Position numbers and translations under genes: made by a program
Assembly (NCBI GenBank): GCA_017510335.1
Contig: JAFWNM010000012.1
Location: 1-64,000 of the forward strand
Direction: 5' to 3'
Origin: Paracoccaceae bacterium
GTDB lineage: Bacteria; Pseudomonadota; Alphaproteobacteria; Rhodobacterales; Rhodobacteraceae
DNA: 64,000 bases
The notes under the pieces: generated by a model
Told to the model about the DNA's origin: nothing
The model's input: the letters and a program-made list of their open reading frames with translations, nothing else
The model's database searches: none
Shown here: piece by piece, positions 40,716 through 45,943 of the stretch
Position numbering within the stretch: the stretch's first letter is position 1
How the letters are laid out: every line of letters starts with the position of its first letter

Positions 40716-42038
40716 ATGATGGACCTGCAAAAACTTGCTACGAACCGACGCGGGTTCATGGGGCTTGCCGCGGGCGGCAGTGCTGCATTGGCGATGGGCG
40801 GCGCGGGCAAACCCGCACAGGCGCAACGCACCAATGCGCGTATCCTGATCATGGGCGCAGGGGCAGGGGGCGCGGCCATCGCCAACCGTTTGTCCGAGCG
40901 TCTGGAGGGCGCGCAGATCACCATTCTGGACGGACGCCCGCAGCATTGGTATCAACCCGGTTTCACCTTGATCGCCTCTGGCCTGCGCAAGGCCAGTTAC
41001 GCCGTGTCGTCCACCGAACAATGGCTGCCAGGGGGCGTGACCTATATCAATGAATATGCCGCCGAACTGGACCCGGACGCGAACCGCGTCACCACAACGG
41101 GCGGGCAGCGTATCGACTATGATTACCTGATCGTTGCCACAGGTCTGGTGCTGGACTGGGACGCCATTGAAGGGTTTGACCTGAGCATGGCCGGCCCGCA
41201 AAACGGCATCGCGGCCCATTATGCCAGCCCAGAACATGCCGAACTTAGCTGGCAGGCGCTGGACAAATTCACCACCGAAGGCGGCGTTGGCATGTTCGGC
41301 CGCCCCGCGACCGAAATGAAATGCGCAGGCGCGCCCGTCAAGCTGTGCTTCCTTGCCGAAGATATTGCCACCACCAAAGGCAATCGCAGCAAATGCGAAT
41401 TCGTCTATAACGCGCAGGCCACGAACCTGTTTGGCGTGCCGGTCATTCACCACCGCGTGCGCCAGATCATGGATGAACGCGACATCACCTACCGCTATCA
41501 GCATGTGCTGAAAGGTATTGATCTGGGGGCCAAAACGGCCACCTATGCCACGCCCGACGGGGACGTGACCGACAAATGGGATTTCATCAATGTGATCCCG
41601 CCACAGCGCGCGCCGCAGGTCATTCGCGATTCTGGTCTGTCATGGGCGGAACGCTGGGTTGATCAGGGCTGGATCGAAGTGGACATGCAAACCCTGCGCC
41701 ATGCGCGCTATGCCAATATTTTCGGGATTGGCGACATCAACGGTGTGCCCAAGGGCAAGACGGCGGCGTCTGTGAAATTTCACATTCCTGTGGTCGAGGA
41801 TCATCTGGTCAGTGAAATTGCAGGCCGCGAGGGCACGCGCCTTTATAATGGCTACACGTCTTGCCCGCTGATTACCCGCATTGGCCGCGCCATGCTGGTG
41901 GAATTCGACTATCAGGACAACCTGACCCCGTCCTTCCCCGGTGTGATTGCGCCGCTGGAAGAATTGTGGATCAGCTGGCTGATGAAGGAAGTTGCGCTGA
42001 AAGCCACCTATAATGCCATGCTGCGCGGTCGCGCCTGA
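40716..42038 (+). CDS. Sulfide:quinone oxidoreductase, type II (mitochondrial-like), Tat-exported
   Basis: 440 residues. A twin-arginine signal (TNRRGFMGLAAGG, ~9-21) precedes an FAD-binding GAGAGGAAIANRL fold. The pattern MKCAGAPVKLCF and GYTSCPLITRIGRAMLVEFDY matches mitochondrial SQOR (type II), whose redox-active Cys lie in KCAG and TSCP; both are present. It oxidises sulfide and passes electrons to the quinone pool. A GGGGGG site lies 8 bp before the ATG. A hydrophobic/amphipathic end (LEELWISWLMKEVALKATYNAMLRG) could bind the membrane. DUF5368 follows in the same direction. Confidence 0.87.
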   Translation: MMDLQKLATNRRGFMGLAAGGSAALAMGGAGKPAQAQRTNARILIMGAGAGGAAIANRLSERLEGAQITILDGRPQHWYQPGFTLIASGLRKASYAVSSTEQWLPGGVTYINEYAAELDPDANRVTTTGGQRIDYDYLIVATGLVLDWDAIEGFDLSMAGPQNGIAAHYASPEHAELSWQALDKFTTEGGVGMFGRPATEMKCAGAPVKLCFLAEDIATTKGNRSKCEFVYNAQATNLFGVPVIHHRVRQIMDERDITYRYQHVLKGIDLGAKTATYATPDGDVTDKWDFINVIPPQRAPQVIRDSGLSWAERWVDQGWIEVDMQTLRHARYANIFGIGDINGVPKGKTAASVKFHIPVVEDHLVSEIAGREGTRLYNGYTSCPLITRIGRAMLVEFDYQDNLTPSFPGVIAPLEELWISWLMKEVALKATYNAMLRGRA

Positions 42039-42120: not shown

Positions 42121-42477
42121 ATGGAAGACTTCAGCCTGATGACGCTGCTGGCCGTGTTCGAGGAAATGTTCGGGCGCGGGCTGTTCTGGGCCATGGTTGC
42201 CGTGGCTGCGATCATTACGCTTGGCTATGGCTATGTTCTGGTGCGCGACCGCGCGATGTCGATGCGTAAATTCTTGTTGGCGCAATTGTCCATGCCCTTT
42301 GGCGGGGTTGCCGCTGTTGCCTTTGTCATGATGATGACGAATTCGGGCTTTCGTGACATTGGCGGGCCGATCGACTGGATTGTGCTGTTGGGCGTTTTTG
42401 TCGCGGGGGCGGTGGGTTTCGCAATTCTGGTCTATGTGGTTCAATCCGTCCTGCGGGGCAAGGAAGCTGACATCTGA
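42121..42477 (+). CDS. DUF5368 membrane protein
   Basis: 118 residues. Three hydrophobic segments (LFWAMVAVAAIITLGYGYVLV, FGGVAAVAFVMMM, WIVLLGVFVAGAVGFAILVYVVQ). In Rhodobacterales this protein is often encoded next to a sulfide:quinone oxidoreductase, as here, which hints at a role in sulfide oxidation or in holding the enzyme at the membrane. No catalytic residues recognised. A hairpin terminator follows. Confidence 0.7.
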   Translation: MEDFSLMTLLAVFEEMFGRGLFWAMVAVAAIITLGYGYVLVRDRAMSMRKFLLAQLSMPFGGVAAVAFVMMMTNSGFRDIGGPIDWIVLLGVFVAGAVGFAILVYVVQSVLRGKEADI

Positions 42478-42541: not shown

Positions 42542-42574
42542 CCCGCGCCCTTCCTCCCAAAGGCGCGGGTTTTG
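42542..42574 (+). terminator. Rho-independent terminator after DUF5368
   Basis: CCCGCGCC at 42542-42549 pairs with GGCGCGGG at 42562-42569 (12-nt loop), then TTTTGGGATTTTT. It isolates the cysS leader from upstream transcription. Confidence 0.75.
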
Positions 42575-42586
42575 GGATTTTTGGGC

Positions 42587-42615
42587 TTGGCACTTGCGGG
42601 GGGCACGCGTATGGT
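42587..42615 (+). promoter_or_regulatory. Predicted sigma-70 promoter of the cysS leader
   Basis: TTGGCA at 42587-42592 (5/6 to TTGACA), a 17-bp spacer, and TATGGT at 42610-42615 (4/6 to TATAAT). Transcription would start near 42622-42623, at or next to the ATG of the Cys-rich leader peptide, so that message would be leaderless or nearly so. Confidence 0.5.
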
Positions 42616-42622
42616 TTTCCAC

Positions 42623-42667
42623 ATGAAGACCTTGACCCGCATGATTTGCTGCTGCATTTGCCGCTGA
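42623..42667 (+). CDS. Cys-rich leader peptide upstream of cysS
   Basis: 14 codons: ATG AAG ACC TTG ACC CGC, then M-I-C-C-C-I-C-R and TGA. Four of six codons near the end are TGC (Cys), 84 bp before the start of the cysteinyl-tRNA synthetase gene. An in-frame ATG at 42611 would add four residues (MVFH); it lies in the -10 element, so the shorter form is preferred. Poly-Cys leader peptides are known to control cysteine genes by ribosome stalling in actinobacteria. The same logic here would tie cysS expression to charged tRNA-Cys. Not verified; too short for routine gene finders. Confidence 0.5.
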   Translation: MKTLTRMICCCICR

Positions 42668-42722
42668 GTTTACGGCGGGCGGTCTTGTTTTCATTTCCCT
42701 GATCGAGTTTTCCCCCGCCCGC
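42658..42722 (+). promoter_or_regulatory. Competing hairpins after the Cys-rich leader peptide
   Basis: Hairpin 1 joins TTGCCG (42658-42663, covering the end of the last Cys codon and the stop area) to CGGCGG (42673-42678). Hairpin 2 joins GCGGGCGG (42675-42682) to CCGCCCGC (42715-42722). Both use 42675-42678, so they cannot coexist. A ribosome stalled on the Cys codons would block hairpin 1 and favour hairpin 2. There is no T run after hairpin 2; control could act on translation or through Rho. Confidence 0.35.
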
Positions 42723-42750
42723 GCGCCAGCATGGCCCGAGAGGAGAGGAC

Positions 42751-44178
42751 ATGACCAAGATTCGGTTGCACAATTCGCGCACCCGCAAGCGGGAAGATTT
42801 CATCCCGCTGGACCCTGAAAATGTCCGCATGTATGTCTGTGGCCCCACTGTTTATGACCGCGCCCATCTGGGCAATGCGCGCCCTGTGGTGGTGTTTGAT
42901 GTGCTGTATCGGTTGCTGCGCCATGTCTATGGCCAGGGGCATGTGACCTATGTGCGCAATTTCACTGATGTGGATGACAAGATCAACGCGCGCGCCGCGC
43001 GCATGCAGGCGGATGGCGATGCGCGGCCCCTGAACCGGATCATCCGCGCGCTGACAGATGAAACCATCGACTGGTATCATGCGGATATGGACGCGCTTGG
43101 CGCATTGCGACCCAATCATGAGCCGCGCGCCACGCAGTTCATCACCCAGATGATTGCGATGATTGACGGGCTGATCGCCAAGGGCCATGCCTATCTTGCG
43201 CAAGGCCATGTGCTGTTTGATGTGCGCAGCTACCCCGAATATGGCGCGCTGTCGGGCCGGTCGGTCGATGACATGATCGCAGGCGCGCGGGTGGAAGTGG
43301 CCCCCTACAAGCGCGACCCGATGGATTTTGTGCTGTGGAAGCCGTCCAGCGCGGAGGAACCGGGCTGGGACAGCCCTTGGGGGCATGGCCGTCCGGGCTG
43401 GCATATCGAATGCTCGGCCATGAGCCATGAGCTGTTGGGGCCATCATTCGACATTCATGGCGGGGGCATCGATCTGCAATTCCCGCACCACGAGAACGAG
43501 ATCGCGCAAAGCTGCTGCGCGCATGAGGGCGCGGGGTTTGCGAATTACTGGCTGCATAATGAAATGGTGCAGGTGGAGGGGAAGAAAATGTCCAAGTCCC
43601 TGGGCAATTTTTTCACGGTTCGGGATTTGCTGGATACGGGTGCTTGGGGACCTGTTATTCGACTTGTTCTTCTTTCCACCCATTATCGAAAGCCAATGAA
43701 CTGGACACAGACCAAGGCTGACTCTGCAAAAAAGACACTATCTCGATGGATAAAAATAGTGGCTGAATTTGACGGACAGGCAATTGTCCCGGATCGGTTT
43801 CTTGACATTCTGGCAGACGATTTGAACACCCCATTAGCTATAGCAGAAATGAAGTCTTATGCTAAGAAAGGCAACATAGCTGCTCTTATAGGCAGCGCTC
43901 AGTTGTTAGGTATTAGCTTCTCGGAGGTTAAGCTTCATCTTGAGGTCGACAAATTTCTCAATGATGGATCTAAGCTCAGCCGTGACTTGCATGAAATCGT
44001 TCGCGACATACTCCTACTTCGAGAAAATGCAAGAGCGGAGCGCCGCTTCCAAGACGCAGATGATATTCGGGATAAACTTCAAAGCGTAGGTATACACATT
44101 ATCGACACACCAGAGGGCAGTTCATTCGAAATTACAAAGCAATTTGATCCAGAACTATTTGGAAAGTTAAAGCTGTGA
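42751..44178 (+). CDS. cysS: Cysteinyl-tRNA synthetase (mosaic composition)
   Basis: 475 residues, normal length. GAGGAGAGGAC precedes the [20 protein letters not shown] carries the HIGH-like motif, the zinc-binding Cys/His residues are in place (C in VCGPT, ECSAMS, HHENEI), and [11 protein letters not shown] is the KMSKS loop (~277-287). The C-terminal anticodon-binding region (~290-475) is complete and ends [19 protein letters not shown]. The second half is AT-rich with codons unlike the first half (see the separate feature). A Cys-rich leader peptide lies upstream. Confidence 0.95.
43620..44178 (+). other. Low-GC segment forming the 3' 40% of cysS
   Basis: Hand counts of full 60-bp rows: 43201-43260 has 38 G+C; 43681-43740 has 26; 43801-43860 has 24. 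Leu TTA, Ile ATA and other A/T-ending codons appear only after about 43620. The frame is kept, the protein stays full length, and GC returns to normal immediately after the stop. This fits replacement of the 3' part by foreign DNA with the crossover near the conserved KMSKS region. Confidence 0.75.
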
Positions 44179-44198
44179 TTTCTCCTGCTCCCTCTGTT

Positions 44199-44252
44199 CC
44201 GCCCGTGCGCCAGCACGGGCGGCGCCCGCCCGCCCCCACGGCGGGCGCTTTT
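44199..44252 (+). terminator. Tandem GC-rich hairpins after cysS
   Basis: Stem 1: CCGCCCGTGC / GCACGGGCGG with a GCCA loop (44199-44222). Stem 2: GCGCCCGCC / GGCGGGCGC (44222-44248) followed by TTTT. Probable terminator between cysS and cimA. Confidence 0.6.
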
Positions 44253-44314
44253 GCGCCCCCCTCGGTCGGGCGCTGCCCGTGTTCTGACAGGTCACACTTG
44301 CAAAGGGGACACCC

Positions 44315-45943
44315 ATGACCCGCGAACGCCTTACCCTCTATGACACAACGCTGCGCGATGGCCAGCAGACGCAGGGTGTGCAATTCTCCACACCGGAGAA
44401 GCACGCCATCGCCGCGATGCTCGACAGCATTGGTATTGACTATATCGAAGGGGGCTGGCCCGGCGCGAACCCCACGGATAGCGAATTCTTCAACGCCAAA
44501 CCGCAAACCAGGGCCGTTTTCACGGCCTTCGGGATGACCAAACGCGCGGGCCGGTCGGCGGAAAATGATGATGTGCTGGCGGCGGTGCTGAATGCGGGCA
44601 CCGATGCGGTGTGTCTTGTGGGCAAGTCGCATGATTTCCACGTCACCACGGCGCTGGGCATCAGCCTTGAGGACAACGTCGAAAACATCCGCGCCTCCAT
44701 CGCGCATTGTGTGGCGCAGGGGCGCGAGGCGCATTTCGACGCCGAACATTTCTTTGACGGCTACAAGGCCAATCCCGACTATGCACTGGCCTGTCTGCAT
44801 GCCGCCCATGATGCGGGCGCGCGCTGGGTGGTGCTGTGTGACACCAATGGCGGCAGCCTGCCATCCGAGATTGGCACCATCACCCGCGCGGTCATCGACA
44901 GCGGCATCAAGGGCGCGCGTCTTGGCATTCATTGCCATGATGACACAGGGCAGGCCGTGGCCTGTTCGCTGGCGGCAGTGGATGCGGGCGCGCGCCAGAT
45001 ACAAGGCACACTCAACGGGTTGGGGGAACGCTGCGGGAATGCGTCGCTGACCACGCTTATTCCAACATTGCTGTTGAAACCCGCCTATGCCGACCGCTTT
45101 GAAACAGGGGTGACGCTGGACGCGCTGCAGGGGTTGCTGCGCATTTCACGCAAGCTCGATGATATTCTGAACCGTGTGCCGCAGCGCAGCCTGCCCTATG
45201 TGGGGGCATCGGCCTTCGCGCATAAGGCAGGGCTGCATGCAAGCGCGATTTTGAAAGACCCCAGCACTTATGAACATATCGACCCCGCGCAGGTGGGCAA
45301 TGCCCGCATTGTGCCGATGTCCAATCAGGCGGGGCAGTCGAACCTGCGGATGCGGCTGGCCGATATGGGCGTGCAGGTCGACAAGGGCGATGCGCGGCTG
45401 GGGGCCATTCTGGACCAGATCAAGGACCGCGAGGATCAGGGCTATGCCTATGACAGCGCACAGGCCAGTTTCGAATTGCTGGCGCGGCGTGCGCTGGGGC
45501 AGGTGCCCGATTTTTTCGAGGTCAAGCGCTACCGCGTCACTGTGGAACGGCGCAAGAACAAGTATAACCAGATTGTCACCCTGTCCGAAGCTGTGGTTGT
45601 CGTAAAAATCGGGGATGAAAAGAAACTGTCAGTGTCGGAATCGATGGACAGCGCCGGTCATGACCGCGGGCCTGTCAATGCCCTGTCCAAGGCCCTGTCC
45701 AAGGATCTGGGCCCCTATCAGGCCGCGATTGACGATATGAAACTGGTAGATTTCAAAGTGCGCATCACCCAAGGCGGCACAGAGGCCGTGACCCGCGTGA
45801 TTATCGATTCAGAAGACGGGCAGGGGCGGCGCTGGTCAACTGTGGGCGTGTCGCCCAACATAGTTGACGCCAGCTTTGAGGCGCTGCTGGATGCTGTGAT
45901 CTGGAAATTCCTGCGCGACGGGGTGAAACCATGCAAGACCTGA
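44315..45943 (+). CDS. cimA: (R)-citramalate synthase
   Basis: 542 residues. The HMGL-like barrel starts with LYDTTLRDGQQTQGVQFS (catalytic Asp/Arg), has the HCHDDTG metal site (~208) and HKAGLHASAILKDPSTYEHI; a C-terminal LeuA-type allosteric domain (~410-535) follows. It condenses pyruvate and acetyl-CoA to citramalate, giving a threonine-independent route to isoleucine. It is distinguished from isopropylmalate synthase by its length and GGWPGANPTDSEFF block. The next gene overlaps its end by 13 bp. Confidence 0.92.
   Translation: MTRERLTLYDTTLRDGQQTQGVQFSTPEKHAIAAMLDSIGIDYIEGGWPGANPTDSEFFNAKPQTRAVFTAFGMTKRAGRSAENDDVLAAVLNAGTDAVCLVGKSHDFHVTTALGISLEDNVENIRASIAHCVAQGREAHFDAEHFFDGYKANPDYALACLHAAHDAGARWVVLCDTNGGSLPSEIGTITRAVIDSGIKGARLGIHCHDDTGQAVACSLAAVDAGARQIQGTLNGLGERCGNASLTTLIPTLLLKPAYADRFETGVTLDALQGLLRISRKLDDILNRVPQRSLPYVGASAFAHKAGLHASAILKDPSTYEHIDPAQVGNARIVPMSNQAGQSNLRMRLADMGVQVDKGDARLGAILDQIKDREDQGYAYDSAQASFELLARRALGQVPDFFEVKRYRVTVERRKNKYNQIVTLSEAVVVVKIGDEKKLSVSESMDSAGHDRGPVNALSKALSKDLGPYQAAIDDMKLVDFKVRITQGGTEAVTRVIIDSEDGQGRRWSTVGVSPNIVDASFEALLDAVIWKFLRDGVKPCKT

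Follow-up and report, generated by a model that had tools for sequence, protein, structure and literature searches.

The locus described here lies in a 64,000-nucleotide stretch of contig JAFWNM010000012.1 of a Paracoccaceae bacterium (this whole stretch is called the window below), and all of its features are on the forward strand. It contains cysS, encoding cysteine--tRNA ligase (42751-44178; TIGR00435, 450.9 bits, NCBIfam cut-off 340), followed after 136 nt by cimA, encoding citramalate synthase (44315-45943; TIGR00977, 576 bits, NCBIfam cut-off 450). Upstream of cysS, a short open reading frame (MKTLTRMICCCICR-stop; 42623-42667), supported by its conservation, consists of 14 codons followed by TGA and is probably leaderless. 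Its putative regulatory codons, delimited from per-position tables, are Ile8, Cys9, Cys10, Cys11, Ile12 and Cys13 (ATT TGC TGC TGC ATT TGC; 42644-42661). An earlier note on this DNA had described the frame as lying 84 nt before cysS; the frame is present, and the distance from its end to the cysS ATG (42751) is 83 nt. A scan for promoters and terminators found both signals that had been proposed around the leader: a TTGGCA-N17-TATGGT promoter (-35 at 42587-42592, -10 at 42610-42615), the A of the leader ATG lying 8 nt past the last -10 base, and a terminator-like hairpin (42555-42577; 8 pairs, a loop of 7, then TTTTT) between a DUF5368 gene and the leader-cysS unit. The scan returned 2 promoter-like sites versus 0.6 in shuffled sequences, and 4 terminator-like sites versus 1.5.

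Two neighbouring features were recorded in passing. The DUF5368 gene (42121-42477, PF17336) adjoins a gene at 40716-42038 whose protein resembles type III sulfide:quinone reductase (NF049943, 205 bits, below the cut-off of 525). The 3' third of cysS (43741-44178) encodes a hypervariable C-terminal part of CysS: for 22 other members of the genus, mean identity was 86% over residues 1-330 and 35% (24-80%) over the remainder, and the window CysS compared with these 22 gave 85% and 28%, respectively. The variable part is AT-rich, with a GC content of 0.43 versus 0.58 in the window, and 0.44-0.55 versus 0.57-0.62 in eight relatives.

Conservation of the leader was assessed in 239 cysS loci, made up of at least 80 from named records, 30 from the window's genus (33 of 38 genomes matched) and 129 from a family sample of one genome per genus (144 of 149 genomes matched). 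The cysS start could be placed in 237 of these loci, and 234 had at least 150 nt of upstream sequence; a few species were possibly counted twice, once as a named record and once as a sample genome, and such pairs were kept in the counts. By a strict test considering Cys only (a short frame within 300 nt having at least three Cys among its last nine residues), 101 of 179 Rhodobacteraceae-type cysS loci passed, while the reverse complement and shuffled sequence each gave one pass among 234. A relaxed test considering Cys and Ile together (an ATG frame of 10-18 codons ending 55-145 nt before cysS, with at least four Cys or Ile, including at least one Cys, among the last nine residues) detected a leader in 154 of the 179 loci, namely 28 of 28 testable loci of the genus, 108 of 128 in the one-per-genus family sample and 18 of 23 other named loci listed. 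Among controls for the relaxed test, each of 20 Markov sets yielded 0-1 of 179, and neither the reverse complement nor the inside of cysS yielded any. The leader is 14 codons long in all 28 members of the genus. The Cys run, which the earlier note expected to be kept in close relatives, is indeed kept there: at least three Cys stand among the last nine residues in 27 of the 28 genus leaders, codon 10 being Cys in 27 and codon 11 in 28, and Cys occupies positions -4 and -5 in 72 and 71 of 108 genera, respectively. Comparison of sequences confirmed the leader as real and conserved beyond chance. The Cys pattern of the window leader (TGYTGYTGYATHTGY) has five matches in the window's genome; the other four sit in longer open frames and are not leader-like.

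In most relatives, the Ile codons of the predicted leader equal or outnumber its Cys codons. The 126 leaders detected outside the genus by the relaxed test contained 30.1% Ile and 22.6% Cys among residues after the start, and 125 of them had at least two Ile; the CysS proteins of the non-genus loci, taken for comparison, contained 4.2% Ile and 1.0% Cys. Since the relaxed test favours both residues, the Ile excess was rechecked in two ways. For the first, 62 one-per-genus leaders were picked on Cys alone, and codon -3 was excluded because ATT occurs there in 97 of 108 leaders, which suggests a constraint at the RNA level; Ile still made up 175 of the 500 non-Cys residues. For the second, a set blind to composition was formed from all family loci with exactly one ATG frame of 12-15 codons ending 60-115 nt before cysS (104 of 128 loci, 19 having no such frame and 5 having more than one), and its residues were 29.7% Ile and 21.6% Cys. 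Within these 104 leaders, Cys and Ile were found 67 and 32 times at position -4, 67 and 23 times at -5, and 38 and 30 times at -6, respectively; at -7 and -8 Ile was found 72 and 64 times, and Cys 6 and 5 times. From genus to genus, Cys and Ile substitute for one another at given positions of the predicted leaders, and because converting TGC to an Ile codon, or the reverse, takes at least two base changes, the exchange reads as a preference for 'Cys or Ile'. The window's genus leans to Cys (34.1% Cys and 15.7% Ile), with at least two Ile in 21 of its 28 leaders, and in the window Ile8 and Ile12 flank the TGC run. The Ile part is weaker in this genus, where the leader would be mainly a Cys sensor with few Ile codons left.

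These patterns bear on two alternatives. According to one, the Cys-rich peptide itself, and not its codons, would be the sensor or the product, for instance by binding metal or through redox chemistry, as could be read from the CCC and CC motifs in the leaders and from the fact that CysRS carries zinc. The number and spacing of the Cys residues vary, however, some leaders have just one or two Cys, and Ile substitutes at the same positions, so that a functional peptide is very improbable. According to the other, the element would be a Cys-only attenuator, as published for uORFC-8-2, in which the Ile codons serve RNA structure or slow translation beside the Cys codons. The ATT at codon -3 is a signature at the nucleotide level, the window's genus keeps the Cys run and has less Ile, and the paper on uORFC-8-2 (Brewer et al. 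2021, PMC8632094) speaks of Cys alone, the words isoleucine, citramalate, cimA and leaderless being absent from its main text. Against this stand the Ile that persists with codon -3 excluded, the mixture of ATT and ATC at the other Ile positions, and the interchange of Cys and Ile between genera. Together with the gene content described next, these points make a Cys-only attenuator unlikely, and we favour a leader in which both Cys and Ile codons are read.

Citramalate synthase acts on pyruvate and acetyl-CoA in a route to isoleucine. Leader content follows gene content in the predicted leaders: those of linked cysS-cimA pairs contain Cys and Ile, those of cimA alone are Ile-rich, and those of cysS without cimA are Cys-rich where a leader is present. 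The unlinked cases were taken from two families, f8 and f111, each of which is one lineage whose loci are not independent events. In f8, an alphaproteobacterial family of 40 genomes, cysS is far from cimA in both genomes compared (G192 and G293) and was present in none of the 30 cimA loci fetched (L340-L369). Leaders upstream of cimA (for example, MNPAHSIIQGLIISG and MNIINAIIIKGLIISG) had at least three Ile among the last ten residues in all 30 loci, versus none in the reverse complement and a Markov mean of 0.06, and none of the 30 had two or more Cys; they end in LIISG, IIIRG and similar in every locus. The f8 leader seems to be a distinct Ile attenuator of cimA. Two points speak against the Cys-only alternative: a standalone cimA preceded by Ile-rich leaders that lack Cys pairs, and citramalate synthase as the second gene of the linked pair. 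A GAGGA-like sequence precedes the ATG in several of ten f8 loci, so that a leaderless start is not evident in that family. Upstream of f8 cysS, no leader was found within 145 nt in the 29 testable of 30 loci (L419-L448), three weak matches lying about 284-310 nt out; the CysS match crosses one in-frame TAG in 11 of these 30 loci.

In f111 (61 genomes), 39 genomes gave a cimA match at E 1e-40 or better, none above 36% identity, which is the level of paralogues in other genomes. Cys-rich leaders (for example, MKTIRFHRCSACCCCC and MENTRHTLCCCLR), each with 0-2 Ile, preceded cysS in 6 of the 30 loci fetched and Ile-rich leaders in none (Markov means 0.0 and 0.3, respectively); the other 24 had no leader by the same test, and the f111 part of the comparison is accordingly small. 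Leaders were also present in ten listed Hyphomicrobiales-type loci (for example, MKTVICIICRKIIR and MKTSFAICGICIIG), the genera of this type being, by record titles, Rhizobium, Ensifer, Mesorhizobium, Phyllobacterium, Devosia, Stappia and Bradyrhizobium. The presence of cimA was checked in 13 genomes, the ten with leaders and three lacking one (L027, L038 and L055). In all ten, the cimA locus overlaps that of cysS, and cimA is on the same strand, at most 3.6 kb from where the cysS match ends; among the other three, one has an adjacent cimA and two have only paralogue-level matches. A class-wide sample contained 47 adjacent cysS-cimA pairs, of which about four had a leader that was convincing by eye (L243, L254, L268 and L315) and two a doubtful one (L246 and L251). 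In the same sample, leaders were found in none of 17 cysS with cimA elsewhere, in one of 16 cysS without cimA (L312) and in two of 20 unlinked cimA (L324 and L325, both from f8). The predicted leader is not a general companion of the cysS-cimA pair.

The gap between the two genes in the window (44179-44314) is GC-rich, contains GGCGGGCGCTTTTGC and appears hairpin-prone by eye, and a scan of it found no terminator or promoter. It could partly separate cysS from cimA, and being GC-rich and hairpin-prone it means that cimA may not depend on the leader in the window. No Ile/Cys leader satisfying the criterion was found inside the cysS-cimA gap in the genus, and leader Ile content did not differ between loci with short and long gaps.

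When the 126 non-genus leaders were aligned on their ATG, T was found at -36 (70 leaders) and -35 (100), G at -34 (68) and -33 (80), A or T at -12 (119) and -11 (104), and C at -1 (108), and the alignment showed no purine-rich ribosome site. The spacing of the promoter to the leader ATG is conserved by position in these 126 and in the 28 genus leaders, and CTTGA occurs at about the same distance in the ten Hyphomicrobiales-type loci. A promoter fixed relative to the ATG, combined with the lack of a ribosome site in front of it, suggests that the transcript starts at or beside the leader AUG.

Two hairpins sharing bases had been proposed downstream of the leader, and exclusive pairings of this kind exist: a G-rich arm (42673-42682) can pair either with the leader end (42661-42666) or with 42715-42722. 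The first of these, helix P1 (42661-42678; from folding and swap energies), joins the leader end and stop codon (42661-42666) to 42673-42678 and is likely the core of a terminator; the second, helix P2 (42675-42722; from folding and swap tests), joins 42675-42682 to a C-rich arm at 42715-42722 and excludes P1. A further helix, P0, supported by the MFE fold and by swap tests, was absent from the earlier account and is part of the conserved structure. Its 5' arms (42623-42630 and 42634-42637), with the start codon inside, pair with 3' arms (42681-42684 and 42687-42694) located in the U-rich stretch GGTCTTGTTTTCAT, and the 3' side of P0 shares bases with the end of the G-rich arm and with the loop of P2. 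In the window, 42623-42697 folds as P0 and P1 with -24.6 kcal/mol (z -2.32; 5 of 200 shuffles as good); the region after the leader, 42668-42753, folded no better than its shuffles (z 0.41). In an Rfam scan of the window only two tRNAs reached the gathering score, the best E value near the leader being 1.5, for an unrelated sRNA. A T-box riboswitch was considered and rejected, there being no T-box match at the gathering score in the window.

RNAalifold gave no consensus structure when 107 of the 126 non-genus sequences were aligned (19 were left out: 8 outside the length range, 3 for similarity and 8 by hand), and arm-swap tests were used instead; within the genus it gave one doubly changed pair. 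In the swap tests, each arm was paired with its own partner or with the partner from another genome (200 swaps), P0 being represented by the initial 18 nt and the 18 nt that follow the G-rich arm, P1 by the leader end with the G-rich arm, and P2 by the G-rich arm with the downstream region. Energies were computed for 122 of the 126 non-genus loci, the four without a recognisable G-rich arm being left out. Own versus swapped energies were -9.30 versus -6.80 kcal/mol for P0, -11.78 versus -10.66 kcal/mol for P1 and -17.41 versus -16.67 kcal/mol for P2, with 0 of 200 swaps as good in each case; two control arm pairs showed no excess over swaps in the same loci. Counting contiguous pairs in 104 one-per-genus loci, P0 with at least six Watson-Crick pairs was found in 51 (swapped mean 10.3, maximum 20), in the form of 37 distinct helices, and P2 with at least seven pairs in 61 (swapped mean 42.1, maximum 52). 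For P1 this measure was uninformative (7 of 104 versus 7.8 swapped; 0 of 28 in the genus). Inside the genus, P0 showed no excess (50 of 200 swaps as good; contiguous pairs in 9 of 28 versus 7.5), and P1 and P2 exceeded swaps by energy (0 and 2 of 200 as good, respectively) but not clearly by contiguous pairs. Eight usable Hyphomicrobiales loci gave 2, 0 and 52 of 200 swaps as good for P0, P1 and P2, respectively, and 12 of 200 for one control; with so few loci and a control leaning the same way, this set is too small to weigh. By these comparisons the predicted helix between the first codons and the U-rich tract (P0) covaries between genera, and the mutually exclusive helices are supported across genera.

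P0 and P1 are nested, enclose the Cys and Ile codons and end at the U-rich tract, and together are the likely terminator. The U tract is not continuous (TCTTGTTTT), which makes intrinsic termination less than certain, and the leader might instead act on cysS translation or through Rho, the position of the ribosome exposing a C/U-rich stretch or the cysS ribosome site. Such a route would fit the interrupted tract, the C/U-rich and G-poor composition of 42685-42714, the distance of about 15-20 nt between the end of P2 and the purine-rich ribosome site of cysS that follows it, and the precedent of actinobacterial Cys leaders, which are described as lacking conserved terminator hairpins and for which Rho has been proposed (PMC1262725). 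A hairpin followed by a T-rich stretch is nevertheless kept across the family, and P0 closes at that very stretch; we regard action through translation or Rho as somewhat unlikely, and retain an intrinsic terminator in what follows.

Taken together, the element is probably a ribosome-mediated transcription attenuator that senses two unrelated aminoacyl-tRNAs, those of Cys and Ile. Sequence comparison supports the leader with its Cys and Ile codons, the spacing of the promoter, helices that covary and a relation of codon content to gene content; from these we infer where transcription starts, that the leader is translated, that ribosomes stall on it and transcription terminates, and in which direction the response goes. 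Transcription would begin at or beside the leader AUG, and a ribosome would translate the 14 codons as they emerge. With charged Cys-tRNA ample (in most relatives also charged Ile-tRNA), the ribosome would finish and leave, and the leader would fold, with its end held to the G-rich arm in P1 and its first codons paired to the U-rich tract in P0, so that both act as a terminator and transcription halts before cysS. With either charged tRNA scarce, the ribosome would stall on the Cys or Ile codons, and a stall on codons 6-13 would block P0 and P1; the freed G-rich arm would then form P2 downstream, and the polymerase would continue into cysS and, where it is co-transcribed, cimA. Starvation would in this way raise expression of cysS (and cimA). 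As P0 holds the start codon in the window, the folded leader would also refuse a new ribosome, and as the 5' arm of P1 would likewise be hidden under a ribosome at the stop codon, timing would matter.

The earlier proposal of a Cys-leader attenuator of cysS is well supported by conservation, by the constant spacing of the promoter and by helices that covary in related genera; it missed the Ile codons and the cimA gene after cysS. With somewhat less assurance than for two-tRNA sensing as such, we lean towards a scheme in which one leaderless frame of 13-15 codons reads the charging of both Cys- and Ile-tRNA for the cysS-cimA operon and is tuned by exchange of Cys and Ile codons, single-input leaders taking its place where the genes are apart (Ile for cimA, Cys for cysS). 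If this is true, what was predicted as a cysteine attenuator is in fact a gate that responds to either of two amino acids without a shared pathway, spanning Rhodobacterales and several Rhizobiales genera. It would also be a compact attenuator with the start codon inside the terminator stem, and its Cys+Ile, Ile-rich and Cys-rich forms would offer a natural series for testing whether leader codons follow operon genes.

Among known systems, the E. coli ilv and thr leaders likewise contain codons of more than one amino acid. The amino acids of ilv and thr leaders belong to a shared pathway; no pathway is common to Cys and Ile, and a tRNA synthetase is encoded by one of the two genes here. Codons of more than one amino acid in one leader are also described for the Caulobacter ilv leader (PMC4117421). 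The rnTrpL/peTrpL system of Sinorhizobium meliloti, as described in PMC10117765, resembles the present element in having a leaderless leader ORF of 14 codons, in occurring in an alphaproteobacterium and in acting by transcription attenuation, but it reads a single amino acid (Trp) and belongs to another operon. The short leaders of cys operons in actinobacteria (Seliverstov et al. 2005, PMC1262725) likewise carry consecutive Cys codons close to their stop; they differ, in the description drawn on here, in preceding cysteine biosynthesis operons, in having no conserved terminator hairpin and in that no Ile is mentioned.

The closest counterpart is uORFC-8-2, for which 145 examples were reported exclusively upstream of cysS in Rhodobacterales (PMC8632094). 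Its publication in 2021 means that the earlier note was wrong in knowing of no description for cysS in this order. The description there comprises a uORF in which two Cys codons stand in tandem, a stem that includes this pair and a U run, with read-through on ribosome stalling proposed. Like it, the window element stands upstream of cysS (TIGR00435), its closest named relatives among the matches listed are Rhodobacteraceae, and it has tandem Cys codons, here the TGC codons 9-11. In uORFC-8-2 the Cys codons are usually at peptide positions 14 and 15, compared with 9-11 of 14 here, although the numbering basis of that paper may differ. Of its two stems, the first contains the Cys codons, and a U run lies at the 3' end of the motif; here P0 and P1 surround the Cys codons and close at a U-rich tract and P2 follows, and these helices may correspond to the published stems. 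A search of open-licence articles returned this Cys prediction, and nothing on Ile codons or cimA for this leader. uORFC-8-2 is said to be exclusive to Rhodobacterales, whereas similar leaders were found here also in Hyphomicrobiales-type loci; and while Cys attenuation had already been predicted, the Ile input and the link to cimA appear to be new.
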